Source of the DNA: Isoetes taiwanensis
Lineage: Eukaryota; Streptophyta; Lycopodiopsida; Isoetales; Isoetaceae
DNA length: 64,000 nt
Reading direction: 5' to 3'
Assembly (NCBI GenBank): GCA_021234155.1
Contig: JAJEKV010000052.1
Coordinates: forward strand, 1,175,933 to 1,239,932
Both the position numbers and the translations under genes were made by a program. Below, in pieces: positions 653 to 60,761 of this stretch. How positions within the stretch are numbered: the first letter of the stretch is position 1; each line of letters opens with the position of its first letter. The notes under the pieces are model-generated. The model saw only the letters and a list, made by a program, of their open reading frames with translations, made no database searches and was not told where the DNA came from.

Positions 653-689
653 GGCGGACGCTTAGGTTGAGGTAAGCTCCACACAACCA

Positions 690-17805: not shown

Positions 17806-17842
17806 GGCGGACGCTTAGGTTGAGGTAAGCTCCACACAACCA

Positions 17843-26692: not shown

Positions 26693-26992
26693 CTGAACTT
26701 CGTCTTCATCAGAGGACAAATCCACGTCTTGTTGTGTTTCAGGAACAAAGTGTTCATTGCTGGGATTCGCTCTGGAATAACCACTATTTCTTTTAGCCAG
26801 CTGCCCTGTACTGCTATCCCCGTATCCTCTCTTAGGTGCATAGCCACGGCCTCTGCCCCTTCTTTCCATTTCTAGTGCTTTGATTCTAACTTCCCTATCA
26901 CACCAAGCAAGTTCCCTTTCTAAGCTTTCACAAAGCCGCTCCTCTTCTTCTGAATAGAAACCTTCACTTCCGTTTTCAGACTTGCCTCCCAT
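26693..26992 (-). CDS. First exon of retroelement ORF1 (copy 1)
   Basis: The exon starts at an ATG in good context (AAAAATGGG) and codes about 100 residues. It has an acidic start with SEEEERLCESLERELAW (possible helix or coiled coil), an Arg/Gly-rich patch (RRGRGRGYAPKRG), and an acidic end, SSDEDEVQ. It ends at a clean donor, CAG|GTAACAAAG, in phase 0. Without splicing the frame continues 16 more codons to a stop at 26642. Copy 2 at 60731-60423 differs by in-frame insertions and deletions only. I do not recognise the domain; RG-rich and acidic stretches would suit nucleic-acid or protein binding. In this copy the downstream exons are missing, so it is probably not functional alone. Confidence 0.55.
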
Positions 26993-27022
26993 TTTTGCAG
27001 TTATGCTTATTAGCGGGAGTTT

Positions 27023-27091
27023 TTAGAGGTCATAAAGACCGGTTGGCTGCCAGTTAGCATTCCGACCTCTGCCATCTCTGGTATCTGCCAT
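27023..27091 (-). CDS. Upstream micro-ORF before exon 1 (copy 1)
   Basis: An ATG at 27091 opens a 22-codon frame (starting MADTRDGRGR) that stops 30 bases before the exon 1 ATG and is in the same frame. Copy 2 has the same micro-ORF with two amino-acid changes. It could reduce translation of ORF1, or it could be remains of a longer N-terminus cut by a stop. Confidence 0.3.
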   Translation of the reverse strand: MADTRDGRGRNANWQPTGLYDL

Positions 27092-27715
27092 TTTTCATCG
27101 ATTCTCAGAACCCTAAATTCTTTACTTTAATTTTGGCGACTGAACGTCTCACCTTAAGCCCCTTAGGGGTCAACACTTAGGTCGTATACAACTGTCTAAG
27201 GTAAAACATTATGTCCCTTAAATTAAACCATCTTCTCATTAACCACCCGTTAGGTTTCAACTTAGCAACCTAGGTCCTAGGTTACCCTACTAGTCCACAA
27301 GTCTTTTACAAGCTTAGGCCATATATTTTTTTAAAAAAAACCTACTATGCATGTCTAACATTTGTACTTGATAATTTTTTTTAAAAACCAAGCAGTTGAT
27401 GAGTGCACCAGTTTCAACTTACCAATTTAGGCCCTAGGTTATCATCCTAGCCCCAGTTTTACTATAAGCCTAGGCCATATTTTTTTTAAAAAAGGCAGCA
27501 ATACTATGTATGCCTACCATTTATACTTGATACATTTTCTTACCAAGCAGTTTGTTGAGTGCATAATCATTTAAGCATCTCTTTATACATTTATAAAAAA
27601 AACCCTACCTCCATCCGTAGGATTGTATTAAAGACCCCTGTATCTTAGTCAGCTTACTGTAACTATAGGGTGAATAGACCCCTACTTGTTACAGTAGGGG
27701 CCTTTTACAACCCTA

Positions 27716-27762
27716 CTAGAAACGTGTGCCCGGCGATGCCGGGCATTAGTGGTGGATGTGTG
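27716..27762 (-). mobile_element. Helitron 3' end (minus strand)
   Basis: Read on the minus strand, GCCCGGCATCGCCGGGC forms a hairpin, followed by ACACGTTT and CTAG before a T. This is almost the same as the ends at 46451 and 43886. The 5' TC end should lie at higher coordinates, but I could not identify it. If it lies beyond about 33 kb, the F-box and cyclophilin remnants would be inside the element. Confidence 0.6.
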
Positions 27763-30476
27763 CAATGCATTTAAGGGAATATATATTTTTCAGGTGAAGT
27801 AGATACTATAGATAGAGAATAAACTTTAACTTTAAAGTGTAAATATATGAAGTAACTTGTATAAAACTATTTAGTTCTTGATCTAACAATTCCATTTTCA
27901 TCGACAAATTGCCTTCAGCAAAATCTTTAAAAAATATATTGGGTCTACCCACAAATACAAACTTTTTTTAATGCAATTTGAAACTATAATGTCTGTCAGC
28001 CTCAATGGATCCACATCATGAAGAACTTATCCCAAAGAATCTTAGGAACATCTATCAGCTCGATGCAAAGCTCATTTGCGATGCTGACAGGTATAAAACC
28101 TCCTCTCATTAAGACTATGGCGGCGAACATGAATGTATAAACATCCTCTAATATCGTGTTCCACATGCACGACTCAGGTCTACCAACAACTATGCTATAT
28201 TTTGCTAGAAACTCGGGAAGCTCATAATCACCATGTCCCCACTTTGAATTGTCTCAAAATACCAAGGGTTTCCTCCACTACGCTGCTCCAATGCTACCTT
28301 CATCGGATGCATTTTCAATCTGGTTTATCAAACACGAAGTAGTTGGTGTATTTATTCTAGTTAATCTGACATTCTCAAATTCCCTAGCTAATGCTTTCGC
28401 CTTGGCCATACAGCTTCATACCTAATGCCTGCCTTTCTCCAATCTAGTTTTCAATTTCTTAGGTGTTTGATAAGATAGGTTTTGCCGTACAACATTCGGG
28501 GTTTGAGGCCCAGATGTTTAACATTAACAATATCACTTGGTAGTGAACTCATTACATCTACACTTGTCAATACATCAACTGAGACACACTCATTCAATTC
28601 AATGTGCAAGTTAGTTCCTGATGATGCGACCTGACCAGGCAATAGTTGAGGGCATGTTGAATGTGTATGGTTATTGATTTTGTAGGTGCAATAGGATGTT
28701 AAAGATAGGAAGGAAACCTTAGGTTATATTGCCTCCTTAGTTGTTAGTTCAAAAATTGCTAATTCAACCAACAAATTGCCTTAGTCAGCATGTCTTAAAC
28801 ATTAGTCGTGGGCATATAAATTAATGCAATAGAATATTGTAGCCAAATGCCAACCCATGAAAAAATGACTTGCATTTGTCATGTAACAGTTTGTAACAGT
28901 TTGTAGGTGTGATGATGATAGGAGTTCACAGATTGTAGTTCGCAGTTCGCAATTCACAGTTAAAGTTCAAACATTGAGCCAGATAAATTTCTAACCAGAT
29001 TGTAGTCCGCAGTTCAAGTTTGTAGTTCGCAATTCACAGTTAAAGTTCAAACATTGAGCCAGATAAATTTCTAACCATGCACTGCCATAGCCAAAATCAA
29101 TTCCTTAATATGTGATTCATAATGAGAGAAATTATGATTGAATCACATAAAAGATGCTTGCAGCTGCGGCTATAAGATTGAAATTGCAGCTTTTATATCC
29201 TTATTCAATTTTTTCAACTAACCTAACCTGAACATGCTGCAAATGGAAGATCCATATATGCGTTTGGATCTACAACAGACATCCGTTGGCAAATTACTGA
29301 AAGCCAGAGCTATCATTGCTCAAGACAAAAAGATAAACTGAGAACAAATTAAATACCGCAAATATTCTTCATTATCTTTGTAAAGCATCAACAAAACCTT
29401 TTCATAGCAACATACCCATTTCAATAAAATTGTCCAACTTTCACGTCGTCAACCATCTTCGCATCAAATGCCATACCCTATATTGCTCAAAAAGAACCTT
29501 ATATAAAAAAGCTAGATCTCATTCTGCATGAAATAAATAAAAATTAATGCTTAGTTCAAGCATACAGTTGCAATTAGAAGGCATCAAAAAATGGATTATC
29601 AGTGTTGGTTACTGAATTTACAACACGTCTTATGGATTTCTAAGGCCTTCTCATTCATGCTGGGCTGATGATCTAGCTTTCAGCAACCAAATCCCTAGCA
29701 TGACGCAATTTTTACATTATGTCTGATCCTAATATTTTACATATGAAAATTTGATAGCCTAATACAAATTTAATCTAATTCATTCTCAGAGCTAGAAGAA
29801 ATGAAGCATTAAAACCTCATGTGCATGTCTGATTTCCAAAAATATAGACATCTGATAGATATATCCGCACATATATCGAGATATGTCCCAAAACCACCAG
29901 CCTCATGATCACAATGGCACCACAAAAGCATGGCGCACTTACAACGATCTATGCATGGACATACTTGCTATCTATCATAATCTGGACTTCGAGATGCACT
30001 TGTTTAGGTTAGAAATGGAAATGATGAGCAAAGCAGATCCCTCATAAGTAAAAACTTGCTTAAATGTCTGCCTATTTGAGACAGAATGGTCCATTTCCAT
30101 GCAATGCCCTAATCTACATGGAATTTATACTCCACTCCAAGCTACACTACAATATATAAAACAAACTGGTGTCAAGCTCATATGAAGATGGGCACCCAGC
30201 AAACAGTAACTTTCTTTTGTATGTCCTCGTACCAGTCTGCCTAAGTAAAATTTTATGCCAATATCTCAAAAATTGAAAAACCTTTATCTGGAGAATGCTT
30301 GTTAGAAAAAGAAGGCATACTTGAATTTGTTGCATTTTGTGAACATGAGGTTCTGGATTCTCAAACAGAGTGGCCATGAAAAGCTTTATTCATTGAAGCT
30401 TGCCTCGGCATTACTTTGCTTCTGCATCAAATAAACAAAAGGAGTAACATATAAAAATGGATGTAGTAGATGCATA
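27763..30476. other. Mostly featureless; weak decayed coding near 28000-28340
   Basis: On the minus strand about 28010-28200 reads as WNTILEDVYTFMFAAIVL, then RGGFIPVSIANELCIELIDV in one frame, with stops around it. It looks like a degraded exon, but I cannot name the family. A phrase of about 60 bases (GTTCGCAATTCACAGTTAAA and on) is tandemly repeated near 28935-29075. Nothing else is supportable. Confidence 0.4.
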
Positions 30477-30727
30477 TTCACACGGGGGGTTACTTCGGGC
30501 AACGAGAGCCTTCGGATGGGCATATTTGCCCTTTATTCCAAGATCTGGACCGTACATAGCGATCCTCGTTTGTGGGGTATGCATGTACAAGTTTTTGTAT
30601 ACTGTATATTAAGATTTGCAAAATACTATAAGATTTGAGAGAATGTACTTAATGGTATTAAATTTGTACATGTATTGTAAATATATTTTTGGGGCTCTCG
30701 CTGCCCTACGTAACCCCCCCGTGTGAA
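30477..30727. mobile_element. 251-bp MITE with TA target duplication
   Basis: The ends are inverted repeats, TTCACACGGGGGGTTAC and GTAACCCCCCCGTGTGAA, and the match continues inward through GGGCA(A/G)CGAGAGCC. Flanking TA dinucleotides at 30475 and 30728 suggest a Tc1/mariner-type MITE. No empty site is present in the window to confirm the duplication. Confidence 0.7.
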
Positions 30728-31189
30728 TATGTAGCATAATAACAGAATATGCACCCAAACCAAAGGGGGTTTAAGGGGGATTTTAATTTAAATGTGTCAA
30801 ATGCAATGGTTTGTGTTAATAATGTTAGTTGTGTGTTAACTAAAAAAAATTTTGGCCCCTTTGGGGCCTTACGGATGGTGTAGAGGTGTAGATATAGACA
30901 TTTTAAGTAATTGCAATGACCTTACTAGAAATAAAGGGCATGTTTCTGCCATCACTAGTCTCATTGTTCAAATTTAGGTCGGGCAGAATATGCAAAGCTA
31001 GAACCATATGGAGGTAGTAGGAAAAAGATATTGCAAATACTCACAGTAAAATTTCTTTAAAGAGAAGCAATAGAATTGTTAGTAATCACCATAAATGAGA
31101 TAATAGAATTACAGAATAGATCCTCTAATCCAGCATTTCCGTGCGTGATAGTGGCTGGATTATAATATAATATGCCTCTGCCCTATTAT

Positions 31190-32298
31190 TCATGAGTGAC
31201 TTGCCAAGGCCGTCTCCTTCAGAAGAAGATACAATGAGATTTTTGCCCGCAAACCGCCATGTATTAATATCAAGGCACCTTCTCTATCTGCTCCAAGTTC
31301 ATGCACTTGATTGTAATAGTCATCAACAACATAATCCACAACATCTCCTCTAAACGCAACCTCTCGCCATGTATCTGCCAGAATGTTGTAGGAAAGTATG
31401 CTGTGAGCATAAGAATCATAGTGTCCCCTTATTGTGACAAAATGAACCACCCCATTATGCCTTTGTTTTGGTACCATTCGCAAATTTCCTTCTGAGATCA
31501 TCCCACCATCACTACATTTGTCGCTTGTGCATTTACCGGACCAGCTTTCTACATCAGAATCATACACATGTGCCACAAAAAGTGGTATCCGGCAGTCACA
31601 ATGCATTCACAAAGTGCTCCTTTGGAAGCTCCCAATAAGAAATCACAACTACTTTATACCTAAGCCTTTTGTTGCATGATCTCACGGAGGAACTTTTAGG
31701 GTTCTTATCTACATGCAATGCAACTATACAAGCACGGAAATCAAGCACGCAAGATGGAGCTTTGGGTAAGAATATAGACTAACCGGTAAGGGGATTGAGA
31801 ATCGCCAGTTGCCAATTTAAAACCCGCCTCAACATATTGAGCAAATGAACAAAGTATGTTTTGGGGAAGCTCTCCAATCGCCGGCAATTCTAACAAAGAG
31901 TTTTGGGGGCTCCACTCGAAAGTGCCTTCAGCCTCGACCTTAAAAACAACATCCATTCCATTGATAACCTTCCCAACAAAGAGTGATGAAGAACTGAGAT
32001 CCATTAGTATTAGGCCCTCGCATTTGCCATAGACAAGACACGGGGCAAGTGTTAAGCTTAAAGTTTTCATCTGCAAACTTGGCCCCATAGATAGATTCTC
32101 CTCCCCTTCCATCTCCATGGGTAAAATCCCTCCTTGGATGATAAAACTAGGGATAATAATGATGAAGAATGTCGCCTTTAAAATGCAAAGCCTTACCACT
32201 TTGGATCTCTGCGCAGAATGCTGATCCGAGAAAAGCGCTAAGCGAGAAAGGACGGACCATCTCTTAGGATAGTCTTGCAAGTGTTTCGGGGCAACCAA
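31190..32298 (-). pseudogene. F-box/kelch-type protein remnant
   Basis: Two minus-strand frames (32298-31741 and 31606-31190) are joined by a readable stretch in a third frame (KNPKSSS, RLRYKVVVISYW). The order is: a start region; LPAIGELPQN; SPYRLVYI; RYKVVVIS; FVAHVYDSDVESW; YNILADTWREV. The pattern of a PLTG-like block, then RYKVVV, then VYDS...SW is typical of plant F-box proteins with a C-terminal kelch-like domain, which select substrates for SCF ubiquitin ligases. The F-box itself is not evident. Frameshifts and a stop at about 31606 break the gene. It may be a captured fragment, because a Helitron 3' end lies downstream on the same strand. Confidence 0.55.
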
Positions 32299-32575
32299 GG
32301 CCAGAACTAGCAGCCGGGGCCAAAGCTATAAGGGAACCTCTCGCAAATGATCGCCATATCTCTCGGTATCGAGGAAACCCGAAGGGGTACAACATTTTTT
32401 GCACTTATGGGCTCCGTCTGAATTGGCTAGGCTGGACCGAGGAAGACTATGATGGCCAGCCATCGGTACAAGTTGCAGATGCAGAGTAAATGCCCTAAAT
32501 TCGTCGGTGCAGATCAGCGATTTTCACATTTCGGAAAACAGACCGAACCGAGTCAAAGGGGATAGATCCAGAGAA

Positions 32576-32893
32576 TTATATCAGAAACAGGCAAAGATTA
32601 TTAACCCCGTGACACATATGTTCCAGAGCTCGGAAATTGTCCACAGTTTTAGGAATTGCATTACCATAGAGCCCCATAACCACGCGACCTGCTGCCTTCC
32701 CATTGATTTCCACATCAAAATAAGCCTTGTGTGTGTGTGCCTTCGTTTTGTAAAATTTCGACCAGAGCCAAGCTGCAGAAGCAACCTCGGCTCCAGAAGG
32801 CCTAGCCCTAAATGCACGAATTTTCAGAAAGAAGCTACATGCAGGAGTTGTCCACGATTTTTTTGGCCTTAGATGCCCTAAAATGCTTTCCAC
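32576..32893 (-). pseudogene. Cyclophilin (peptidyl-prolyl isomerase) 5' fragment
   Basis: The minus-strand frame holds [20 protein letters not shown] and then [17 protein letters not shown], matching the N-terminal strand block of single-domain cyclophilins (usual YFDVEI...[26 protein letters not shown]). The frame then reads EHMCHG, where CTGE is expected, and soon stops. The catalytic core residues further on are absent, so the piece cannot be an active isomerase. It lies on the same strand as the F-box remnant, about 280 bases upstream. Confidence 0.75.
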
Positions 32894-35036
32894 AAGGATT
32901 GATGTTCAGCCCCTAAAATACAAAAATACAAAGAGGGCTTTTGTTGTGAGCCCTTGGATGTTGGACCATTGAAAAAAAAAAGCTAAATCAACGACTAAGA
33001 AATGGTGCACTCTAGATGTACGCATTAGTACATCCATTCGAATACGCCATGAAATCTTAGGAAAACCTTTGTCAAAAGCGTAAAAAAATACAAAGAAAAC
33101 CCCCTGTTATTATGCTACATATTCATTCAATAAAATAAAACAGAAAGGAGACAAAACAGAGTTCAAAATGTCTTACCATAGAAGAAGGCAATCAAACTCA
33201 CGATCTAGACTCCCTGCATTACATTTAAATGCATGTATTAGTTGGAATTTGGCAGAATGAGAAGTAAATAGAAAGGAGAGCTTAATGCTCTAAAAAATAT
33301 CCGAAGCACAGAAAGAAAAAATTAAAGCCTAGCAGAGAATTGATAACAACCTTATATGTGATGTAGTTTCTAATTATTCATAATTAAAAGTATTGCTCAA
33401 CAGAATGCATGCATCCTTTGTCTCGACATTCAACACACATGGCAAAACAACATAAAGCCTCATGGCGGATAGCTTATAAGTCGTGCATCATATGATGTCT
33501 TGACAATTCCATACACTAACATAAACTCGCACAAAATCGTAAAATATTAAGAGTACACATAACACATAAAATATTAGGGGTGTTATAGAGACCATGAACT
33601 TGCAAAAATACCGAAGATCTTTAGGTACCTAGATAGGGTATAACTTAAGGGCAAGCTTACCAAAAGATAGCTTCGCTGTCACTTGTAAAATGAAATGCTT
33701 CCAAGCTGACTTTCAAGTGTCTCGCCACTTCCTAGAGCAACCCATGCAAGAAAGGAAAATAGAGAATTGTTATGTGATTCAGTTCGAGATGCCGACAAAA
33801 TAACAATTAAACATATATTCTTTAGCACGATCTGCAAATCAATATCTACAAAGATGAGACAATCTAAGCAAAAGCCCTCTTCTCTTGCAAATAGGGAAAC
33901 ATTATGGATTCACTGGGGTACCACTATTAGTATTCCTAACTACGCTACTGCTGCATTTGCAAGCGCTATACCACATCTCTGAAGATAAAATCCCCTTATA
34001 AATTCAGAGCTATTTGAACTCTTCTACAAAACAATTCTGTCTCTGCAAAACAGATCAACGATAACATCAGAGATTATTCAAGAAAAAACATACCAAAAAA
34101 AAAAAAATGAGAGCATACTTACGCAAAATTCAGTAAGACCTTTGCAGAAAGTTAACATGTAGAAGCATGGCAGACGTGAAAGCTTGGGTTTAAACTTCGA
34201 TTCTTCAAACTCAATGCTTCAAATTAAGCTGTTTCATTTTGGCCGATCTTTGCTTTTATCTCTGCTAAAAATCTTTCAAAAGGAATTACAGACTGTAGTA
34301 AGAAAATGTATGCTTTATGGTTGGAAATTACCTCTTGTGACACTCATCTTTGACTAATAAAACAGGATTTTGAACTCTTCCATATAATCTGGTCGGACTC
34401 CTTTGTGGATCTGTGACTCTCAGATGTCCGAAGCTCCATCTCCGGCCAAGCCTACAAAGGTTGAAAATAAACACCTTCCGTTCCTCCTGCCAAAAAAAGC
34501 TAGATTTTACAAACCTGCAGCCAAAAGGCTATGCAAAGCCCCACTCCCTGCTAAAAAGGTAACGCATTGATTCTGCATGTCCTGTTTGCAAGGGAAGGCC
34601 AACGACCCCAAGCTGCTAGTGGACGTCCCGAAAGTTTAGGGTCAGATCTGAAAACTAAAAAGAAAATGATGAGAATAAGAAAATCAAACAGCTCACTCGG
34701 CCAGGCTCCAGTCTTCCCAATCATAGACTTCAAATGCTGCATGCAGATTGGTCTTTCGGCAAGAGATGGGCGAGCGGACTGGAAGTGGAGGCTGAAAGAG
34801 AGAAGGAAAAATTCAAATTTCGTACTCAAAATTCGTATTCAAGGCCACAGTCAGTCTCCGGCAAGGGGAGAGGGAACGCCGCATGCGGCGTTACATGCGG
34901 CGTTCCGGGCACATTCCCCAACGCCTTGCCTTTTTAAAAAAGAAGATAATTACCCAATGTTTCTTATAGAACTGAACTATTGTCTTGTATGTCTATACTT
35001 AAAGCAAATTAATAGATCAGCAGGAATTCATACCTT
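32894..35036. other. No gene recognised; one GC-rich palindrome
   Basis: Short frames only. Around 34870-34905 GGAACGCCGCATG and CATGCGGCGTTCC form an inverted repeat, with the decamer ATGCGGCGTT doubled. The stop codon of the reverse transcriptase (35039-35037) is followed by AAG|GTATGA, a donor-like site, so the 3' UTR may be spliced into this stretch. Confidence 0.5.
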
Positions 35037-37061
35037 TTAGTACTCCTTTAGCATTTGCAACATCGTGTTGACATCGTACTTTAAGCCAGGGAATTCGTTG
35101 GCTCCGATGTATTTGAACACCCTTCTTTTTATTCCCTTTATATCAAAGCCATTGCTCACAAAATTGTTTATCAGTTCCTGAATATCTCTTGCAGCATTTA
35201 TAGGGTCGCTGTTTACATACATGCATGGCATTATTTGTGACAGAATCACATTTCGGGCTTGATAGTATGGCCTACAGCTTGCTGCATGTACAAATTTCAT
35301 GGCCTCAAAGGGCAGATATTCCCTTTTATCATATTTAGTGGTTTGGAAGATGCCAAGCACTTTATCATATACTTGGATTGTCATATTCAAGAAGTTTGCC
35401 TTGCTGCCAGTCAAATATCCTTGAGCATTTTCAAAGTATTTCGTCTCCTCCTTGATTCCCAGAACATCTAAATCATATATTTGAAGTTCTTGCTTCCCAT
35501 TGTCCAGTTCCTTACTCAGAAACTGTTTTATATTAGGACAGTTAAGGGCTAGTAGATCATCCATGTACCTAAACACGTATCGAAACAATTTTATTTCCTC
35601 AAATCTGCCCTGTTTTGCTAGATTGACAATGAAGTTAAGCTCGAACCATGCCAGATATAGATTGCACCAGCTTGGTGAACATGAAAAACCCATCGGGATT
35701 CCGCATACTTGCTGCCATATCCCTTGTCCCAGACCTACAAAGCAATTATTAAGCAGCAAGTTATTGGTTTTTATGAACCTTTTCTGGCTCATCATTGTCC
35801 AACATTTTCCTTTTGGTGCTGATTTGAACCATTTAGCCACCAGAGTGTCAGTATTTACTCTTTTCAGCCATAACTCATATCTTTTGTTCTTTTTCTTCAT
35901 ATGACTCCAAGCTTCAACTATTATTTTTTCACTGATTCTGCAGATGCCATTTTCTCCCTGTAGAGGAATGCTTTCATAGCATTTAGTTATGTCAGCCACA
36001 AAAACTTCTTTCACCTTTGTTGGTACGTTTAGTGCGACATCATATACTGAATTTACCATCCAGTTTGAGTTTACTTTTCCTGGTAGAAAAGTATTGATCA
36101 TAGCACAATGGGCCATTGAAATTTCGGGCCATAATTCTAGGATAGAATTTAGAACTATTGTAATAGTTTGAGCTATTTCTGTATACACGGTTCCATGCGC
36201 ATTGGTGATCCATCTATACTCATTTTTATGGGCTTTAAATAATCCCAGCAGGTATGGTAATTTATCCTCTTCATAGTTACAACTTCCAATGCAATCAAAT
36301 ATTCCGTTTTGGATGTCTGTTATTAAATTCTCCTTTTCCACCCCTAGTGGTATAAAATCAGGACTGCTTAGTCTCATCAGGGCCATGTCCCTTATATGCC
36401 TTGGACAGATAAAGGCCGGGTTGTTAGATGCCTTATCTACCCCTGAGATATATAACTTTTTGGTTAACCATTCAAAATTATTGATGACATCTACATCATT
36501 GAATGGGAATTTTTTAATTTTTTCTTTTCTGCAGACCTCCTTTACTGCAGTACCAGCTTCCTCCAATACATCCATTATAACTTCTTCTATGTGTTCTTCA
36601 CATATATCTGGAAACTGGAATCTATGCAGTTCAAAAATAAGGCCACATGTTTTTCTTAGCTCATGTTTCAATTCCCTCCAAATTAGAACTCTATCAGGGA
36701 TATGACTAAGGCCCTTAGCAAAAAGATTGCGAAGTGCTCTATTTCGGATAATATTTAGGTTGGTAGTCCTAATATGTCCTATCTCCGGATCAATAAAACT
36801 CTTGAGATTTGGGTTGCTGCATGGACAGCAGACTTCAACATCCTGTGCGAAGATGTAGTAAGGCTTATAGGCTAGTTCCTTAATGCTTTCAATATACTTC
36901 CATGAAAACATGGTGCCTTCCATAATTTTCTCCCCAGTATCTCCTAGGATTTTTTTCATGCTTTTATGTACGATCTTTGGGATGCAGGTCTTATCCAGCA
37001 CTTTTGATGAAAAAAAACAGTGTACTATCTTTTTCTTGTTTTTGTCCCTGTTTTCACTCAT
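35037..37061 (-). CDS. Penelope/TERT-like reverse transcriptase, 674 residues
   Basis: This is an intact 674-codon frame. The N-terminal part has FIDPEIGHIRTTNLNIIRNR (89-108) and VDKASNNPAFICPRHI (208-223), a DK-type motif placed like the DKG motif of Penelope-like elements. The RT core follows: LPYLLGLFKAHKN (268-280), RWITNA (283-288), motif A FVADITKCYESIP (354-366; Asp357), motif B CGIPMGFSCSP (453-463), motif C FRYMDDLLALN (497-507; Asp501 and Asp502), then FLNMTI (557-562) and the thumb-side YDKREYLPF (577-585). All three catalytic aspartates are present. No GIY-YIG, RNase H or integrase domain is seen. The frame is open 14 codons upstream of the ATG, back to an acceptor (TGTACAG|GTA). 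I infer activity in RNA-templated DNA synthesis. Confidence 0.85.
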   Translation of the reverse strand: MSENRDKNKKKIVHCFFSSKVLDKTCIPKIVHKSMKKILGDTGEKIMEGTMFSWKYIESIKELAYKPYYIFAQDVEVCCPCSNPNLKSFIDPEIGHIRTTNLNIIRNRALRNLFAKGLSHIPDRVLIWRELKHELRKTCGLIFELHRFQFPDICEEHIEEVIMDVLEEAGTAVKEVCRKEKIKKFPFNDVDVINNFEWLTKKLYISGVDKASNNPAFICPRHIRDMALMRLSSPDFIPLGVEKENLITDIQNGIFDCIGSCNYEEDKLPYLLGLFKAHKNEYRWITNAHGTVYTEIAQTITIVLNSILELWPEISMAHCAMINTFLPGKVNSNWMVNSVYDVALNVPTKVKEVFVADITKCYESIPLQGENGICRISEKIIVEAWSHMKKKNKRYELWLKRVNTDTLVAKWFKSAPKGKCWTMMSQKRFIKTNNLLLNNCFVGLGQGIWQQVCGIPMGFSCSPSWCNLYLAWFELNFIVNLAKQGRFEEIKLFRYVFRYMDDLLALNCPNIKQFLSKELDNGKQELQIYDLDVLGIKEETKYFENAQGYLTGSKANFLNMTIQVYDKVLGIFQTTKYDKREYLPFEAMKFVHAASCRPYYQARNVILSQIMPCMYVNSDPINAARDIQELINNFVSNGFDIKGIKRRVFKYIGANEFPGLKYDVNTMLQMLKEY

Positions 37062-37103
37062 TCTTAGTCTTCCTTGGCAATCCCTATGAACTACCCTAGA
37101 TAC

Positions 37104-37396
37104 CTGTACATAATAAACATAGGGAAATTAGGGTCAATCCTTACATCCCTCCATCTAGAAGTTCAGCTCAGAGGTAATTTTCATTTGAATCTTTTATCCT
37201 TTTGGGTAGAATAGCATGGTATACTAGCATGCTCTCGCTTAATTCCAGGTACTTTCATTCCTTTAGAAAGTCCAGCTATTGAGTGGTGACTAGCACTCAA
37301 ATATTTTTACAGCACAACATCTTGTATTTTTTACAACAAATACTATGTACCATACAAGATGCAAACATAATTTAAATTCAATCAGATTTGTCATAC
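37104..37396 (-). other. Candidate intron between ORF1 and the RT
   Basis: The donor TAG|GTATGA directly follows the ORF1 stop at 37399-37397. The acceptor TTTATTATGTACAG|GTA, with a pyrimidine-rich lead and a CCTAAT branch-like site, ends at 37104. Removing these 293 bases places the RT frame in phase with ORF1, separated by the single TAG. This is a hand prediction; RNA reads would decide it. Confidence 0.45.
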
Positions 37397-38942
37397 CTAT
37401 TTATTATATGTGAGTTTGTGGACCACTTCATCCTCAGTAATGTCATGTGCTCCAAGTTCCTTTTTGGTGACTGATTTCTCCAAAGTACTGGGTGTGTTGA
37501 GCTGCTCCACAATAGAGTTATCAGCAATGCTCGATCTGCTCCCTCCTGGAGGTGCTGTAATACGTGGGGGAGTATAGCCTTCAATCATCCTCATGGAGAG
37601 TGCTTTGGATCTTCCTATTTTGGCCTTTTTGCCATAACTGCTACTAGATCCTGCTTCAATATCCTGCATAAAGCTTGCTGGTTTGATACTTTTTTCACAA
37701 ATAACAGCCATTTTGCAGTTTGGATAGTTAATCTTCAAATCAGACCATGGGTCAGCAGCCTGTAAAAATGTCATGTTAATTAGTGCATTCCTGACCTCCA
37801 GGTAGGACAGATATGCTATAATGCTATTCCTGAGCGTGGTCTTCAATAATTTCCTCATAGAAACCATCTGGGCTACCACAGACATGTCAGGGAAAACATA
37901 GTCCAGATTATTGAACATAAACCAAACAGCATGGTCCAGCCATGTCATGCTGTCTTTGCATGCGTTTCCTTTTGCCCTGGGTTCACAAGCACATTTGAAA
38001 TAGGGGCAAAAGGTTCTCCAGACTCGTTTTAGGTAAAAAGCATCCCTGGGAATTGTAGAATATGCCATATGTCCTTTTTGTCTCACATAAATGTGGTCAT
38101 CAATGTCGCAGGTTTTATCAAAAAACCTGTGATCAATATTCAATTTGAACTTTTCCTTGTATATTATCTTCTCCATTTTTATGGCAGCAGCCTTGGCCAT
38201 CCTTTCCTGATCCGGTGTGATGTTTCCTAACATGATCCAAGCTGCTCTATTAATTGGTGCAAGAGCTCCGAAGTTCTTGGTACGCCATATACCCTGATTA
38301 CAAAACATTGCGTGGCTTTCCACTAGCCTCTCTGGTATTATGGGAAAGATGTGACAATTGTGCAAGGTGAAGCTAAATTCCTTGTCTCCATCTTCCTTTG
38401 CCTTTGCAGCCTTGTTGCCCATGGTAATTTTATCTTGTTCAGATAACAGGGAATCACCAAAGGGATCATCCTCTACATCCTCATCGTCCTTTGTCACTAC
38501 ATTTTCACATACCACATTGCTCAAACAGGACCTTTTAATTTTGTTTGCCTTTTCCAGGGCTGGTACACCTGTAAAAAATTGCGTTTTAGCAGCATCTTCT
38601 TCGATAGTCCAGTTGTATATCTTGTTTGGTAATCCTTCATACACTTCCTCTAATATCTTACTGGTAGCATCCCAATCATCACATACTTTATTAAGTCTTG
38701 GTACTAGCTCCAGCCAGTCATTAAAGCCCAAATGTGAGATGGCTGATAGCTGCTCAGGTGTTCTCATTGCTTATTTTTCCAGCAATAACATGTGCACTTT
38801 TGGACCTTTAAGACATGTTAAGAGTGTTTGCACAGCATTACTAGGACATATAATATTGCTCAAACCATATCCCATCGGTCCGAGGTCTCTATTCCAAGTA
38901 GGAGGCACAAATTCAATCGCCTGTGTCTCCCCATCTTCCTGA
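37397..38942 (-). CDS. ORF1 exon 2 of the RT element, with one in-frame stop
   Basis: The exon opens at an acceptor (ATGTTTTCAG|GAAGAT) in phase 0, the phase in which exon 1 ends. It reads 57 codons to a TAA at 38773-38771, then two codons later continues in the same frame from an ATG at 38767 for 456 codons to a TAG at 37399. Visible features of the 456-residue part are a conserved-looking start (SAISHLGFNDWLELVPRLNK), an acidic stretch (93-101), a cysteine/histidine-poor but cysteine-dense patch, CPYFKCACEPRAKGNAC (254-270), and a Ser/Lys/Pro-rich tail. I recognise no known domain. The TAA could be an inactivating mutation, a true boundary between two proteins, or a recoding site. Confidence 0.6.
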
Positions 38943-40595
38943 AAACATGTGCTCATAGTTTTAGTATATATTCATGTCATTCGAACAGCTCAAATCCATA
39001 CCAATAGATATGATGTATCACTGGTAAGACCAATGAAATGAAATATCTAAAAAAAACCCAGACTTAACTAGTCAGGACAACAATCCTACTAGCCAATCAA
39101 ACTACTGCAGTCAATCCCTTAGTAGTTTAATCATTCTATACAGTGTCTTGAGCCAAGGACAAAGATAGTGCATCATATCCAGGTCTGTACAAGTTTCCTA
39201 ACTTTAGAAAGATATAATACTTTTGTCACATATAATACAATATTTTCTACAATTCATGCAAGGCATGTCTCTTCATACGTAGACTCCTTTACTTTTTCAT
39301 ATATTTTTTCCACTTTAGGTTTCACTTTATGCATGGAAGCACATGTCTTAACTCTTTACACCAAAATTATTTTCCATGCATGCAATACTTATTTTCCACA
39401 TGCCAGACTCATGCATGTAAAGTTATGCATGCAGACTTATCCTATAATATATTTTTGTTTACTCCCAATAGTGGTTTCGAAGTTATCTTTCTAGTATTGT
39501 CAAATTTCAGACATCCCCTTATTCATTAGTTACCATGCAAATGTATGTATGTTCATCTTTCATCAATTTCTATAAGTTCAGCTTTAACTTTTCCTGCTTA
39601 ACAGTTAAAAGCCACCACCATTACTTCATCGAATAGATTGATATTTTTTTGCACCTTATTTTTACCACTACCTTAGCTTTGGTGTTTCATGACGACAGTA
39701 TTTAGACGTATGGACTCAAGTCTGCTCCACAATGCTGAAACTTAGAACAAACACAGTAATATTTTACTTCATATTCAATTCTGCCAACAACATTGGTTTA
39801 GCTTTTTCCGCCAGCAAAGTCATTTTTTAAGCAAAATATGCTATAACCAGGAGCTTTACTATTTAAATATTAATTATCTGACTAGAATATCTGTTTGCTC
39901 CATGTTCTTACTATCAGTTACCTTTGATTTTAGATTGATCTCGTACACCATATGTGAGTTCTGAACTTTCCTTTTAATCATTTAAGATACAAAATCATTA
40001 AAATACCAGAGTTTTCGCTACAACTCCTTCTATTTTTCCGCATATCAACGCAGATACAAAATTGCCTATTTATCATACTTGAAATTCTTGTGTAGTCCAT
40101 ATACTCGATTCAAATCATCCTTTTGAGCGAACTCCTCATAACAGCAAAAAAGAAAGCACAATAGCAGAAAAAATTCCACGTACCTGCAGCCAATCATGTA
40201 AACGTTAGCAATAGGCTTGGTAACGATACAAGGGTTAAAAGGTACATTGGGAATTTCTTGGCTCTTCGCCCTTCACCCATTGTACCTCTTTTATGCCCTT
40301 GATTCGTTCAAGCTCAGATAAAATGAAAACAAATATTGGACAAACTTATAATAAAGATAAGAGTAACTAATTCTGAAAACCTGTTATTTATTTACCATAG
40401 CTGCAGTACAACAACATAAAAGACCAATGCATCACATTTATATTAAGGCCTGCCATCTTTATGTTAACATTTGGATCTTCTCCTTTCAATTAATGTTACG
40501 CCTTCTACTTTCTTAGCCTAGCCTTAGTCAGCTATTTCACACTGTCTTGAAATCATAATAATGTAAGGGATAAAACCAGGCTTACTTAGACATCT
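38943..40595. other. Part of the element's first intron (left of the insertion)
   Basis: From 39052 this matches 24487-26074 of copy 1, with a few substitutions and one 30-base gap. The plus-strand frame at 39168-39494 is preserved only because the copies are young. No exon is asserted apart from the uncertain stretch near 40176-40305. Confidence 0.6.
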
Positions 40596-40699
40596 CACAA
40601 GGCGCCCAAAAATGAATTGCTATATAAAAGTAATATCATATAATCTAAAAACCATGATAGACATGGTTTTTTATACAACATTATATTTCATAGCAAAAA

Positions 40700-40895
40700 A
40701 CCACATGCTATAGTGGTTTGTCAAAATGAATAGTGGTTTACAACATGGTTATTTAGTTCAGTTACTTATAAGATAGTGGTTTGCTAAAACTAGCTGTAGT
40801 TTATGGGACCATTTCAATTCAAACTAAAATTAGTAGTGGTTTATTAAGACTACTAACATTTTCTTAAGACACTAAATGAATAATGTAATGGTTTG
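40700..40895. repeat. Left subterminal TAGTGGTTT repeats
   Basis: Exact TAGTGGTTT occurs at 40711, 40731, 40774 and 40834, with variants near 40795 and 40884. CACTA elements carry such short subterminal motifs as binding sites for their TNPA-type protein; that role is inferred here. Confidence 0.7.
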
Positions 40896-40899
40896 AAGA

Positions 40900-43035
40900 C
40901 TAATTCATTGTGTTCAAGAAACTTGCAATTACAAATGATATACCTAAGCATTATTATAGTTTATTTCATGGTGTATCAACAATCATCTAACTCGATAGTT
41001 GATCGAGTCCAACCAAGACCAAAACCATGCCTCATTGTATATATATAAGTAGGACGTTCTTGAATAAATTTTGGCCAAATTTTGTCAAGATGGGGGAATG
41101 ACACTTTTTTTTTCTTGTTCGATGCTTGGGAGGTGCCCTACATGTATCGTAGGGTCCAGTTGGGACATTTTGCCTCAGTATTCTATTTTGGTTCCAGACA
41201 TTGTGCTATATGTGTGTAATCAAAACATATACTGTATGATCATTTTAATCAGTTTACTAAAGAATATCGCCATGTAATTAAGTCAATCATTTTATTTGAG
41301 AATAAATGGATCCTTTGAAATTTATCAAAGGTCCTTTATCTGACTAGGGTAAATTTGACGAACAATACCTTCTTATCACTAAGTTAACATTGATTGAAGC
41401 AATAAGAGTTCATAGACCAATCTTGGAGTTTTTGGACTTGCTCAAACCAGGGTCCTTGAATAGTGGATTCAGCAGTCGGATAGGGGAACTGAGCTCCAGG
41501 AGAGTGGGCATTAGCGTACATCGCTCCTAGGGAGCCCTGCGCTTTGGGATCCATCTCCTAGGGTGTGGCCTCTCACCAGTGGCGAGGAAGTCGCAAAAAG
41601 TCTTGGCCTTATTTGAGTTGGGGCTTCTTAACTGAGCTCGACTTCTTAATAATAGGCGGCCCAGATGGGGTTAGGTGTTTTAACATCCTTGCCTACCTCA
41701 GACGACCAGGATCATGCACCATGTCATCACGTAGAGGAAAGGTCTTGACTATAGAAGATCGTTCTTTAAAAGCCCCCAGAAGCAGCTTGCCCCAAAAGTC
41801 CACCTCGAAGGCTGGCGAAGGACAAACAACTCCCCCACTCTAGAACTATGAATGCGCTCTACCAATGGACTCAGAATATTGACATTACTCTGTGGACCAA
41901 GTTTCATGGGTAGAAGACCACCCCTTCTTCAAGACAGAGAAAGCTTCTTAGACTACCTCTTTGTTTTTAGTTTTTTTTCATCTATTGCATGGACAAGTTA
42001 GAAGGACCATCAAGAGGACTATTGCTGGAAATAAAATGGGTTGTAATCTTAAGAAAATCTGTTCCTTTATGGACATAAAATCCAATTTAACAAAGGATCT
42101 GGATCTGCTGCACACACACATTGCAAAAACCAAGCAAATAATTTCATCTGTTGGCATCCTAAATAATCTAGAACATCACCATGCCCTTCAAATGAACAAC
42201 AAATCAGACACTCCTTGACCATCACAAACCTGCCAAAGACAATGAGTAGGTGGAAGGAAGCTTGATAAACCAGAAATGTGGCGCTCTATTTGTCACCCCA
42301 CACTCCCCAAGGATTGTGCCCTAGGGGCAACCCAAAAAATAGGCGTTATATAATTGTATCACATCCAACTGTCGAGATGAGCGGCTCAGATTGTGATCCA
42401 AGTCCTAAAATCCTATTGGCTTTAAATTAGGCCCAGATTTGATCCCTGCCCTCCATTTTTTTTGCCGCTTCTATCTCCCGCCCTTTTCGTGCACCGCAAA
42501 AAATGCCCACCTCCTTTTCGATTGAGCAGAACTGTAAAGCAGAGGGTGCGCTTCTTTTCTTCCAGATCTAGTCAGTTGGAGATGAAGGTGAGATGAAGGT
42601 GAGATGGAGATGTCTCTAATAATTCCCTGCTTCCGGTTCTTTGAGCCAGAGCCATTCCAGCCCAGCTATGGCGATGGAAGCTCGGTTATGGTTAATCCGG
42701 CAGGGGTGGAGCTTCAGAAGGACCAACACTCTGTTGCAGAGCTTCTCCAACACTATGTTGATGTTGAAGTTCTGAAGAAGAAGAGGCTCTGTCCAATGTG
42801 CCGGAAATATGCACAAAGAAGGGCCATTCAGCTTGATCTCGAGGGTTCAAATCGTGTAGGACATTCATCTTCTGCCATCGAAAAATGGTGGATCTTACCT
42901 CTTTTTTTCTTCGCAGGAATGCATCACCGGCCCCATTCCTTCTTTTGCTTAAATATTTGAGCCGAGCCGATTTTCTGGAGCCCTGTTTCCTGGAGCCGAT
43001 TCATGGACAGTGCATTGAAGATTGCATAGTAGCAG
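40900..43035. other. CACTA interior, no recognised gene
   Basis: The longest frame (42604-42960, plus strand) contains a Cys pair in RLCPMCRKYAQRR and may be an exon relic, but I cannot name it. The rest is short frames. Confidence 0.4.
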
Positions 43036-43204
43036 GTGGAGCAAGATTTTCAATTGCCTTCTGTTACAGACCGATGTAGTCCACGAAATCGATGGTAGAA
43101 CTTCCATCACGTTGCTCTGCCCTCCCAATGCAGTGCTAGATCCAGTTATCAAGAGCCTGGGCGACAATAAACCCCTGCTTCTAATAGCACATATCCTCCG
43201 CTAA
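43036..43204 (+). pseudogene. Possible fasciclin-domain (FAS1) fragment
   Basis: The plus-strand frame reads FNCLLLQTDVVHEIDG, then SITLLCPPNAVLDPVIKSLG, then PLLLIAHIL before a stop. The order F-x-LL-x(4)-VV...ITLLCPPN...LLL-x2-HIL resembles the FAS1 domain of fasciclin-like arabinogalactan proteins (cell-surface glycoproteins). No signal peptide or AGP region is attached. It is likely a captured exon inside the transposon. The match is short and by eye. Confidence 0.35.
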
Positions 43205-43885
43205 CACGCAGCCTGCAATACCTTGATATTCCGCATCTAAATTTTCTTCATGGCATTGCTTCTTTGACCTCGATTCGGAGTTTGGATTTGGCCTGGATCC
43301 CTGCCCTTGCCATCAAATTGAAGGCTTTCCTGCGCAAACTGGCAAACAGCTGAACAGAATCCTTTGTGCCGTCGTTTCTAGATAGTCTTCAATATCATTT
43401 CTTATTTTATATTACAATCATTCAGTTCTTTCATGATATTAAGCCTCTGGTTCTGCTGGGCTCTGGAGCAATAACCATAGCCTATTTTTTTCAACCCCCT
43501 TTTTCCCTTCTTAGCAACCGTGATCAGGGGCTGAGCTGCAGCTTGAAAAAAATCCCCTGTTCTTTGAGGAATGTTCTAGGTTTAGCTTGAAGAAAATCCT
43601 CCACTTTGATGAATGTTCTAGGTTCCATCTATGGTACAATGACGGAAAAGAGACAAGGACCTTTGTACTTTCCATATTTTTCTTTTGCTTCCTTTAAACA
43701 CCATTTCATTTACAGGTTTATTTATGTTTATGCCTCAAGTTTCAATCAGAATAGAATGCTTGCAATGGCAGTTCTGCTTGCTGCCAAGCTGCCCTGCTAC
43801 TTTTGAAGATAAGTACATAGATGTTGTAAGCCTCGTCTGTTTTCTCATCAATCAAAACAGATGTAGGAATAAATTTTAAGTATTA

Positions 43886-46246
43886 CTAGTAACGGTGCCC
43901 AGCGTTGCTGGGCATTCGTTGGAAGTTTGTAAGTTTGTAAATGTTTTTATTGCAATAAGAAATGTGTGCAGTAAGCTTTTATTATTGGAATAGAGAAATA
44001 TTCAAACATAGTTATAGTGCCCAGTGCTGCTGGGTATTAGCATGCCCCATTAATGATGCCCGAAATCATTGTTCTGACCGGAAGCCGTGGTAACACGGGA
44101 GTGTTACAATGGATCATGGTAAGTGTTAAGGAAACCGAATATAACATGCAATTGGGAAAATAGGGAATACAAACCCAACATGCAATTGGCTAGTGAACAA
44201 CTTGGCATGGGTTTAAGAAACACAACATAACATTGGGTGCAAAATTGTTTGCATGATAGGCATAAATGAAGGAAAACAGAAGGAATTCTAATAGAACAAC
44301 AGGGAATGTGCTTAGGAAACCCAACATAACATTGGGCCTTTTAGTACCAAATATTGCATACCTTATCTCCCAGCAAGGTTAGCCCCAAGGTTTTAAATGG
44401 CAAACATCTCTTAATTTTAGTGTGCTAAACCTATGTGAGGGAATGATACTTAGTAATGCTAGGGCAATATAGGCAATACATTAATTCGCTTTCATCATTT
44501 ATTGGACATGAAAATATTGATCAATTGATTTTATCCCATAGGTTCCTCAGATGATTATTAATCGATTTTAATGCATCCCTGATTGTGAAGGTCAAAGTTG
44601 GTTCATATATAGGTTAATAATTTTGCAAAAGTTTGTCTAAGAGAACACGTATCACGGACCTTAGATTGCACAATTTGTATTGTGTTTTAAGAAGCCAAGA
44701 TGTGGGGCATAAGGTGAGTTCGACATGATCATTATTTCAAAGGGCATGGTTGCAAATCATGTACATATAATTAAGACAACCATGTTAATGTTATTCATTG
44801 AAGCATCCTCTTCTTCTAATTTCTTAAGACAAAGATGCAAAGGATCGAGGAGGCTAGCTTCAATGCTATAAAAGAGAAGATAAAACTAAAACACACGATA
44901 TAACTTTCAACCAACAAATTCAAAAACGAAATGCCGGGTTTATAGCCAATCACCGGGTTTTGATATACCCGTTGGTGATGGCATTGTAGCGTTTATAGGT
45001 GTGTCCTTGGGAAAGAAGATTAGGATGATAGAATTTAGAGTTAAAGCAATTGATCCATTGTCAATTAGGAACATGTGCTTTCACTGGATGAACCAGGAAA
45101 AAAGACTTGATGAGACAAAACACAAAGTCTGTACTTACTCATATTATATTTTGCAAAAATAAGGCAGCTAATTGCTGAAGCACCCCATGCAGCAGGAGTC
45201 AAGTTATATCTCAAGGCTTTAATATTTTGACTTGAACTTAAAACCATCAAAGCCTCAAACTGCATGCCAAATTTTGTTAATAAGATATAGAAAATGACTT
45301 AAATCCCACGAAGACTACTGCCATAGATCCAAATGATCTTACCCTACTGCAAAATCTCCAGAAAAGCTCACCACAAAAACATGCAAAGATGGATTGAAGA
45401 AGCCAGAGTATTTGATTGTAAAAAGCCTGGCAGCAGGGTTGATTCCATTTCCACTGTATGCCCTCCATTTTCCCTGCGTTTCACATAATTTAGCATTCAT
45501 CTGGAAGTAGAGAAAGCTGATGAAGGACTTACGTTTTTGTGGAGAGTGAGAATGGGCTTTTCTTCTGAATGGGCCTCATCTGTAATTACTTCCTGAAAAC
45601 TTGAGCACCATGGTCCGGGAGTTATGAGCAGGGACAGAGATCGGGAGGTGCTAAAGGGCTCCATCTGCAACATTCATGCCATGGTCAAAACAAAAACAAA
45701 AACGAATTCAGAGAATCACCCACCCCATTTCTAAGAAGATATGTTGCAGAAGGAAGTCCCTCATCCCGCCACAGAGGGATAAGGCATGCATTTCCAAACA
45801 TAACATGGATTCTTACCATAATCTCTGCGAGAGCGTTTTGGAGAGGGCGAGCGTCCTCGTCTGTCATAGCGCCAGCTAGCTCCAAGGTCCGCCATCATAA
45901 CTTTGTTTCACGATTGAAGTCCGAGATCAGATCCAAGAAGCATTACGGACTGCCGTAGTGTTAGGGTTCACTTTTGTTCTAAGCTTTTGGCCTCTGCCGT
46001 CCCAAAGCTTCCACCCACATTCACCATTGCACGCCACAGCCATAGCCACATTGAAGCCGTTCTCTGCTGCAAAACTGCCATCACTGACCGAGCCGGCCGA
46101 TCCTCCCAACCCTACATTGCCTTCGCAAAAAACCACACCCGATCAAGGGCGTGATCTGGACCGTCTGGCATGTTAGATCAAATTTGGGCCCTCCGATTTA
46201 GGGCGACAAACAAAACAGACAAACACTAAAATTTTATTATAAAGGA
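43886..46246 (-). mobile_element. 2.36-kb Helitron with captured exons
   Basis: On the minus strand it starts TCCTTTATAATAAAATTT after an A and ends CTAG before a T at 43885. The 3' hairpin GCCCAGCAACGCTGGGC is followed by ACCGTTA and the terminal CTAG. A second, weaker hairpin of the same type lies inside at about 44013-44030. It has no Rep/helicase. The 5' third contains splice-bounded exon-like pieces (see the SR-rich fragment). No empty site is available in the window. Confidence 0.65.
45543..45898 (-). pseudogene. Captured SR-rich gene fragment (two exon-like pieces)
   Basis: Piece one (45898-45817) begins with two ATGs and reads MADLGASWRYDRRGRSPSPK, then RSRRDY, and ends at a good donor (TATG|GTAAGAATCC). 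Piece two (45664-45543) lies between an acceptor (ATGTTGCAG|ATGG) and a donor (AAAAAC|GTAAGTCC). In the phase set by piece one it has a stop after four codons, so the fragment is dead. The Arg/Ser-Pro/Arg start resembles N-termini of plant splicing-related proteins; the family is not identified. It sits in the 5' part of the Helitron in the Helitron's own orientation, as expected for transduplicated exons. Confidence 0.45.
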
Positions 46247-46450
46247 TTGTGTCTTTGGCACCATCGAATGCTGCAAACAATTTTGTTCTTTGCAAATATT
46301 TTTGTTCTTAAAATTTAAGAGCTGTAGATGTTAGAGTACATGATGGAATTTCTGTCATCAAATAAAACAAGAATAGTTGCAATAAGCTGCATTTAAACAA
46401 AATGCAAATGCAAATATCAGATGCCTAAAAAGCAATTATTTAAGAGAATA

Positions 46451-46804
46451 CTAGTAAACGTGTGCCCGGCATTGCCGGGCTAATGTCTTAACTTCTGTTT
46501 TTACTTGGCCTTTAACATCTATTTGTGCAACTTCGAACAACACTACAGGTTGATGCTCGCAAGAACGGACTGGCACATTTTTGGGTTCAATTTTTGTACT
46601 AATGTTTGAAATCTATCTAAAGTAAGATCTTATGCAAATCTATAATGTTCGTGAAAAATTTGAGGAGCAACAAAAGCTCTATTACCATTTTTCCAAAAAT
46701 GCTCTTCATTTGGAGGGTGTTTTTGAATTTTGAATTTTTAAATATTCCAGCTTTAAATTTTAAATTGGCAATTACCCATGAAATAGCCCCATTATTATAA
46801 ATGA
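46451..46804 (-). mobile_element. Short Helitron (about 354 bp)
   Basis: The minus strand starts TCATTTATAATAATGG after an A and ends ACGTTTA-CTAG before a T, with the hairpin GCCCGGCAATGCCGGGC. The 5' and 3' ends resemble those of the 43886-46246 element. It is too short to code. Confidence 0.5.
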
Positions 46805-47830
46805 TATGCACAGATGGACTTCTCTATGGTAGCATCATCTAAAATGTTGTTGTAAGCATGCCCATTATTTTAAGATAGAACAATTTATACATTGAAGGTG
46901 CATTCAACAATATTTTGGTAAGAGTTGTTGACTGGCAAGACTGCATGAGCTTTGCTATGAGCATCCTAAAATAAGCACGAAGGAAATTAGTAAACAGATA
47001 AAAAATATCTTTAAGAAAGGTGTCTGTATATGGACCCTATGATCTCCCTATGATCTCCCGAAGAAGAAAACTACCTTGTGGACTCATCTGGCGGATGAGC
47101 ATATACCACATTGGATACAAAAATTGGATCGCTACTTCTTCATGATTAAGGTCCTACAAAATATGATATGTTCACCTGAGGTTTAGGATGCACTCAATTT
47201 CAAACTGTAGTTCTGCAAATCATGTATGCCATGTATACAGACCTTAATAATGCAATGCTTTTAGATTTAACAAAGAGTTTATGTAAGTTATCTACAAGCC
47301 GGAAATGGCAATGAAAAAAGAAATTGCAGCTTGCTTAAAAAATGTCCCAAATACTATCCCTTGTTGGCATATTTTGAATGAGAGATTGCACCAAATTTCT
47401 CGAAATATTGTCCCTTATTACCATGCTTCAAATGAGAGATTGAACCTGTTCACTAAAGCATAAAGCAGCCCTTTATGCGGTTTTATATTTGCCTACTTGG
47501 TTGCATGCTGTTGCTGCCGCCTTACTTGCCTCAAATCTGCGAGATGGAGCATTATTTAAAAATCAACTTCTCAATGAGACAATCAAGAAAAAAGAACTAC
47601 ATGAGCAGCAACCTACAATGGAAGGACTACTTCCAAAACCACCAAAATGCTGTAGAACCTCACCAACAGTCAATTGGCAAACCGAAAGCGTGCACCCATT
47701 ACAGCTATCTCGTAGGAGCATCGATTTGCTCACTGGAACCCAGCATAAAAACCTGGCGATGGTGCCTTTTCACAATTCAGAAACATGAACCAGCTGCCAT
47801 GACGACTCAATCTGCAATGGATCCCTTTGC
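46805..47830. other. CACTA interior, no recognised gene
   Basis: AT-rich DNA. Frames at 47475-47855 overlap each other in two phases and show no family signature. Confidence 0.4.
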
Positions 47831-60731: not shown

Positions 60732-60761
60732 TTTTGCAGTTATGCTTATTAGCGGGAGTTT

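Follow-up and report, generated by a model that had tools for sequence, protein, structure and literature searches.

The 64,000-nucleotide stretch of the Isoetes taiwanensis genome analysed here (contig JAJEKV010000052.1, positions 1,175,933 to 1,239,932; hereafter the window) carries on its minus strand a retroelement with two open reading frames (ORFs), ORF1 and a reverse transcriptase (RT), enclosed by long direct repeats of the kind called pseudo-long terminal repeats (pLTRs). Its parts follow one another in the order pLTR, run of eight T (T8), hairpin, ORF1, intron-like stretch, RT, T8 and pLTR. The sequence-only reading of this DNA had given the element as 35037-38942, which does hold the coding core, but the whole spans 61347-24485, or 10,427 bases (~10.4 kb) once two nested insertions are subtracted. 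T8a denotes the run with which a pLTR begins and T8b the one with which the 5′ pLTR terminates, and the features along the minus strand are as follows.

59802..61347, minus strand: 5′ pLTR, first part, starting TTTTTTTTATAAATG (T8a) directly behind host T bases; 95% identity to the start of the 3′ pLTR
40596..59801, no strand assigned: nested DNA transposon of 19.2 kb in the 5′ pLTR, not the element's own, with CACAAGGC.. inverted ends and a 3-bp duplication AGA
39049..40595, minus strand: 5′ pLTR, second part, terminating GGGTTTTTTTT (T8b, 39059-39049)
40136..40291, minus strand: leader block of the 5′ pLTR, conserved and structured, with its end near CTAAC..CTGCAG/GTACG (slash at the boundary)
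39019..39035, minus strand: 7-bp hairpin, 13 nt past T8b, aligned in 26 distinct copies
37397..38938, minus strand: ORF1 frame, preceded by a TTTTCAG acceptor-like site, with an in-frame TAA at 38773-38771 and closing with TAG
37104..37396, minus strand: intron-like stretch of 293 nt, GTATG...ACAG, beginning directly after the ORF1 stop
37213..37233, minus strand: conserved hairpin within the intron-like stretch, from a multi-copy alignment
35037..37103, minus strand: RT frame of 688 codons and stop after an acceptor-like site, identified by frame, Pfam and fold
27716..34945, no strand assigned: nested 7.2-kb insertion in the 3′ untranslated region, foreign to the element; the relative in C634 is uninterrupted there
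27595..27715, minus strand: conserved block upstream of the 3′ pLTR, ending GGTAGGGTTTTTTTT (T8a, 27605-27595); a related block occurs in a derivative array
24485..27602, minus strand: 3′ pLTR, with the T8a run as its first bases, ending GGG-T12 and then unrelated host DNA
25610..25765, minus strand: leader block in the 3′ pLTR, from the repeat comparison

The window pLTR pair is 96.0% identical across 3.1 kb, the 3′ repeat (27602-24485) being matched upstream in two pieces (61347-59802 and 40595-39049) that overlap by 3 bp (AGA). Here and below, C labels stand for sequences of the host assembly and L labels for loci fetched from them.

The RT frame runs from stop to stop between 37127 and 35037 (minus strand, 696 aa, or 674 aa counted from the first Met) and contains the blocks VDKASNN, KAHKN, ADITKCYESIP, GIPMG and YMDD, so that the 674-residue RT with DK, KAHKN, GIPMG and YMDD blocks seen by the sequence-only reading was found again. 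Its statement that GIY-YIG, RNase H and integrase are missing likewise agrees with Pfam, which gave for the window RT a weak RVT_1 match (1.7e-5, under the curated cut-off) and none of those three. All 19 aligned RTs match RVT_1, with other Pfam families at chance level only, and no GIY-YIG, RNase H, integrase, gag, protease or APE was present in the 19 RTs and 10 ORF1 proteins scanned. When the predicted RT model was compared with solved folds, telomerase took ranks 1-15 in VIA-align (Z 9.7-7.4, with a group II intron RT next at 7.2; families missing from this ranking are not thereby excluded) and ranks 1-11 in Foldseek (best E 1e-4). A profile of the family RT matched the motif-B′ exon of the host TERT (13.3 bits, 5.7e-5, in a small set), with which the element shares a G..(F/W).Q..GI block; the same profile gave nothing better than E 3 with the RTs of host long interspersed nuclear elements (LINEs) and also matched one non-TERT frame of the host TERT locus at 0.021. 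Several TERT exons of that locus (L123, C1056:11072000-11081900) appear by eye to recur as another, partial copy ~7 kb downstream. No relatives of the RT were found in viral contigs (RT alone and two RT profiles) or in prokaryote genomes (RT profile), a sequence search of the PDB returned no RT match, and the best hit of a BFVD fold search had an E of 0.19. With a telomerase-like fold and no GIY-YIG found, the earlier description of a Penelope/TERT-like RT without recognisable endonuclease in a plant can be retained.

ORF1 (38770-37397, minus strand, 457 aa) lies upstream of the RT on the same strand and, as had been anticipated, belongs to no recognisable family: it had no notable match in Pfam, PHROG, NCBIfam or PDB (the best PDB hit was at chance level, E 1.4), no relatives in viral contigs with one ORF1 profile, and a predicted model with a pLDDT of 35. 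Its frame extends upstream to 38938 through a single in-frame TAA (38773-38771), where the other 13 aligned copies read a sense codon; the window ORF1 is therefore interrupted and not intact, while the RT, called intact by the sequence-only reading, is still open. The splice-like boundaries also reported from the sequence were recovered as signals: an acceptor-like site precedes the ORF1 frame, and the stretch between the two genes has both a donor and an acceptor. Among aligned copies, ATAGGTA stands at the ORF1 end in 13 of 15 and ACAG just ahead of the conserved RT frame in 14 of 15, and of 39 copies read by a script 18 have TAG/GTA (slash at the boundary) with both sides in phase 0, the rest having another site or none. 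These intron-like signals are kept in diverged genomic copies and are real as sequence features, from which we infer splicing itself. Since no N-terminal Met is conserved among the aligned copies of either protein, translation would seem to require a spliced leader or a start other than AUG; a start codon sought in three frames of the leader block was not found. An in-frame ATG of the window (38956-38954) was considered as the ORF1 start and rejected, being absent from relatives, as was UAG read-through from ORF1 into the RT, given that the stop or the phase differs in C1028, C1064, L041 and L044.

With 64 of 4848 first-look candidates scored for the RT and 93 of 3457 candidates for ORF1, a search of the host assembly (1,658,258,908 bases in 1110 sequences) gave no fewer than 66 and 94 matches, respectively. 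The 65 RT matches besides the window copy are 54-92% identical, 42 of the 66 rows have no stops, and ORF1 is followed by the RT in all eight loci read at length. The exact motif of the pLTR-ORF1 junction occurs 166 times in the host and its reversed control not once. Ratios of non-synonymous to synonymous change (dN/dS) came to 0.03 (from few changes), 0.07 and 0.10 in the three RT pairs compared, and two ORF1 pairs both gave 0.06, one of them near saturation (dS 2.7), dS being saturated for wider RT pairs; the copies in C435 and C1051 share 99% identity over 3.8 kb of DNA. This is a dispersed multicopy family under purifying selection, and a live or recently live mobile one. Purifying selection and an open frame would also be expected of a domesticated, single-copy host RT gene (rvt-like), but that explanation is refuted by copy number and insertion structure, namely the 66 or more RT matches, arrays, ends and terminal repeats, and we give it practically no credence. 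The sequence-only reading had named copy number as the deciding test, and with copies so numerous, dispersed and diverged the outcome is a mobile element rather than a cellular gene. In C1031 the junction motif occurs seven times at a spacing of 2.7-3.0 kb, and the two units of this array that were read (L127, C1031:14178900-14184700) have T8b and its hairpin, the block before T8a, T8a and the leader block, with no ORF1 or RT detected in them by tblastn. The array is a non-autonomous derivative in which the family's cis signals persist, and their retention without the genes suggests that these are the parts needed in cis.

Long direct repeats, 92-99% identical and up to ~3 kb, surround both genes in six of the eight loci (window, C435, C634, C907, C26 and C1064). 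The internal end of the pLTR is T8 followed by AGA and the hairpin, and at the outer end more T and then unrelated DNA follow. To tabulate these junctions we fetched 36 of 40 places (from 341 candidates), the other four lying in the window or in loci already in the set. A script sorted the 36 into 16 internal junctions, 15 ends and 5 neither; the recount by eye gave 15 internal junctions with hairpin, a decayed internal one (L100), 18 ends (L083, L084 and L108 counted among them), one without T run (L093) and one unclear (L081, printed as internal by the script). Together with the seven longer loci this makes 25 ends, of which 19 have GG and 14 have GGG immediately ahead of the T run, whose length is at least 10 T in 21. 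A complete 5′ end is present in the window, C435 and C26, and begins with a second T8 behind host T bases. In C634 (L021/L038), the copy is flanked on its two outer sides by 1.8-kb stretches that are 96% alike, both of them following a pLTR end. Direct terminal repeats resemble those of long terminal repeat (LTR) retrotransposons, and an LTR retrotransposon or a LINE whose other domains had been missed could be imagined; the repeats, however, terminate at T8, the RT model is nearest to telomerase, the tested host LINE RTs do not match the profile and the gag, protease, RNase H, integrase and APE domains are missing from the proteins scanned, which makes such an origin very improbable.

A covarying hairpin adjoins the internal copy of this 3′-end site. 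In 26 distinct copies 99.5% of the cells of its 7 pairs are paired, against 26-62% for slid versions of the stem, and 13 cells are changed on both sides against 3.3 in shuffles; a weaker control gave 3 pairs changed on both sides against 1.8, a value reached in 57 of 500 shuffles. The set comprises 26 of 27 distinct rows, L016 (hairpin deleted) and L024 (for which the script took T8a) being left out and L066 and L080 having given no T8; where several T runs were present the script chose the best stem, which is a bias toward hairpins, and all 26 stems fall in the same columns. The leader block, ~120 nt within the pLTR, folds with 34 pairs in 9 copies (92.8% of cells paired) and has 8 pairs changed on both sides against 3.0 in shuffles, while RNAalifold gives it little credit, with a covariation term of -0.06; the fold uses 9 of 12 rows, C634, L019 and one C1028 row having been omitted beforehand. 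For the hairpin in the intron-like stretch (26 of 29 rows, three shifted rows dropped by eye) 17 cells are changed on both sides, at two pairs next to CATG, and the outermost pair is unpaired in 13 of the 26 rows; as the copies were selected by CATG on both arms, those four pairs are uninformative. Apart from a miRNA row at chance level in another part of C1028, Rfam recognised no family in the stretches searched.

The element usually inserts in a T run, as read on its sense strand. Six flanks were extended, and in three of them a LINE was shown by Pfam: the T run at C1051 is followed by a LINE frame of 967 codons in antisense, which ends 117 nt away and whose first 501 residues match RVT_1 at 3.9e-32; the one at C1078 by an 868-codon antisense frame matching both RVT_1 and zf-RVT; and the one at C1038 by an antisense fragment of zf-RVT. 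No LINE frame was seen behind the T run at C946 or in the window flank, and the frames at C1063 lay outside the Pfam scan. The C1051 flank is itself repetitive, with 48 matches in the host. Within 45 nt of the end, ATTAAT or TTTATTA occurs in 12 of the 25 flanks, against 1.5 in shuffled flanks and 2.3% of window positions, the motif having been picked after the flanks were viewed and some flanks being near-duplicates. At several places, then, the element has inserted antisense into a LINE tail, possibly more often than into A tracts in general. A simpler explanation is entry into A/T tracts through ordinary break repair with an accidental link to LINEs, and it carries considerable weight, at somewhat less than an even chance. 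LINE tails are a main source of A tracts, the other 13 flanks, that of the window copy included, have no LINE-like motif, and some flanks are not independent (L083 and L084 are 97.6% alike, C634 and L088 95.7%). It is opposed by L113 and L116, whose flanks are 93.8% alike over 80 nt despite different pLTR ends, the L113 site (C1038) adjoining the zf-RVT LINE fragment.

Taken together, a telomerase-like RT, two ORFs, no GIY-YIG found, pLTRs and arrays make a two-ORF, endonuclease-deficient Penelope-like retrotransposon (EN(-) PLE) the best name for the element, and this is probably what it is. According to one review PLEs have either one ORF with an endonuclease or two ORFs without (PMC6431247), and another lists Selaginella and conifers as hosts of EN(-) PLEs (PMC9033089). 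A two-ORF EN(-) type has thus already been published, and "undescribed system", as the sequence-only reading had it, goes too far (PMC6431247, PMC9033089); what is new here are the ends, the hairpin, the leader RNA, the intron-like stretch and the T-run targets. The main text of the Isoetes taiwanensis genome paper does not contain the word Penelope (PMC8566536), and a literature search for Penelope with Isoetes or lycophytes, most subscription papers being beyond its scope, found no such family.

With the EN(-) PLEs of bdelloids, Selaginella and conifers the family shares the telomerase-like RT, the lack of a detected GIY-YIG, the two ORFs and a lycophyte host (PMC6431247, PMC9033089), and differs in that no telomeric repeats or hammerhead were found and in its GG(G)-T8 ends, mostly in T runs. 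Canonical EN(+) PLEs (Penelope, Poseidon, PAc and the conifer Dryad) resemble it in their pLTRs, in copies arranged in full or partial tandem, in ending close to a stem-loop where pLTR and ORF meet and in their A+T-rich targets (PMC11167929), whereas here there are two ORFs and a hairpin instead, with neither GIY-YIG nor hammerhead found. Terminons of bdelloid rotifers likewise pair an EN-deficient PLE RT with further ORFs (PMC6431247), but extend up to 40 kb against 10.4 kb here, where telomeric repeats or hammerhead were not found. Telomerase reverse transcriptase provides the nearest solved fold and the shared block in the host TERT exon; in contrast to it, this element is multicopy and mobile and has its own terminal repeats.

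Several observations weigh against this reading of the element. The RT model is of middling quality (pLDDT 65.7), its TM-scores to telomerase are ~0.3 and the fifteenth telomerase row of VIA-align (Z 7.4) is tied with the group II intron RT (Z 7.2); the choice between a PLE and another TERT-like group was made from fold and anatomy. There was not one run of telomeric repeats in the 320,898 bases searched, and no hammerhead ribozyme in window positions 30000-46000 or seven loci, a search that left the window 3′ pLTR and 59802-61347 outside. No long pLTR pair was seen at C1051 and C1028, at four of the 25 ends the T run does not exceed the 8 T of the element itself, C1028 has GGGCAA ahead of its T run, C907 is without the T8 end, and three of the six loci with a 5′ end in view (C634, C907 and C1051) start elsewhere than at T8a, through truncation or because nested DNA hides the start. 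How the element is spliced and translated, and in what form its RNA occurs, is moreover something that we infer from genomic DNA.

Some of these observations would equally fit a TERT-like retroelement family, separate or unclassified, that is distinct from PLEs and works similarly. The sequence signal is weak (RVT_1 at 1.7e-5), hammerhead and telomeric repeats were not found in the sequence searched for each, and the DK motif reads DKA here. DKG is usual in PLEs, DKA and YDKR blocks occur in animal proteins of unclear class, and a hammerhead is common in PLEs without being required of every one. Yet PLEs are described as having pLTRs, copies in tandem, retained introns and ends at the junction of pLTR and ORF (PMC3846280, PMC11167929, PMC6431247), and we regard a distinct family as unlikely, if still a rival to be reckoned with. 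As to a nuclease supplied in trans, the host has at least 121 GIY-YIG matches elsewhere in its genome (150 of 263 candidates scored), and no PLE-like RT near GIY-YIG was seen by eye in the ORF lists of three host loci. At L125 (C1064:3298400-) and L126 (C1078:2854000-) GIY-YIG frames stand beside Helitron_like_N (below cut-off) or PIF1 helicase frames, which, with the 121 matches, suggests that Helitron-like elements may carry this nuclease in the host.

The remainder of the window holds other repeats. The nested 19.2-kb DNA transposon (40596-59801) has ends CACAAGGC[T/G]CCC and contains a tandem array (50134-58725) of ~2.3-kb units that are 95-98% alike; the 7.2-kb insertion (27716-34945) contains, by eye, a cyclophilin-like frame near 32576-32905; and window positions 1-4135 and 17115-21283 form a direct duplication (94.8% identical) with a kinase-like frame near 20000, also by eye.

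Insertion of the element can be pictured as follows. Its insertions end 3′ at the pLTR-ORF1 junction, and in a tandem or circular RNA the hairpin would lie immediately past that point. Spliced RNA would give the ORF1 and RT proteins, and unspliced element RNA, tandem or circular, would be bound through the hairpin and serve as template, which may be why the intron-like stretches persist. A DNA 3′ end in an A tract would pair with the internal U8 (U8b) and prime reverse transcription there, a start that can be likened to that of the animal PLE PAc, whose purified protein initiates reverse transcription inside the RNA near the pLTR-ORF junction, with A+T-rich sites (PMC11167929). Copying would then cover one unit and one pLTR and stop at the next U8 (U8a), yielding the full copy observed, after which the A8 end of the cDNA would anneal to that tract's T strand, closing the insertion; extra rounds of copying would produce arrays. 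Since no endonuclease was found in the element, the A-tract ends would have to come from host breaks or LINE insertion sites.

How endonuclease-less retroelements enter chromosomes away from telomeres is, to our knowledge, an open question. Telomeric repeats were found at none of the 25 ends read, and copies sit inside scaffolds, as do six that lie from 16 to 42 Mb along C907, itself 53 Mb long. We tentatively suggest, as a possibility short of our expectation, that an EN-less PLE lineage has left the telomere and that T-tract priming has replaced telomeric priming, with U8 and the hairpin using A-tract ends, many of them supplied by LINEs as poly(A) tails or as ends of target-primed synthesis. 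With recurrent ends, a putative priming site with a covarying hairpin and young copies, both target choice and initiation become testable. The family also adds a conserved leader RNA and intron-like stretches in a lycophyte and, if the suggestion is true, the lineage would live on the nicks and tails of another retrotransposon.

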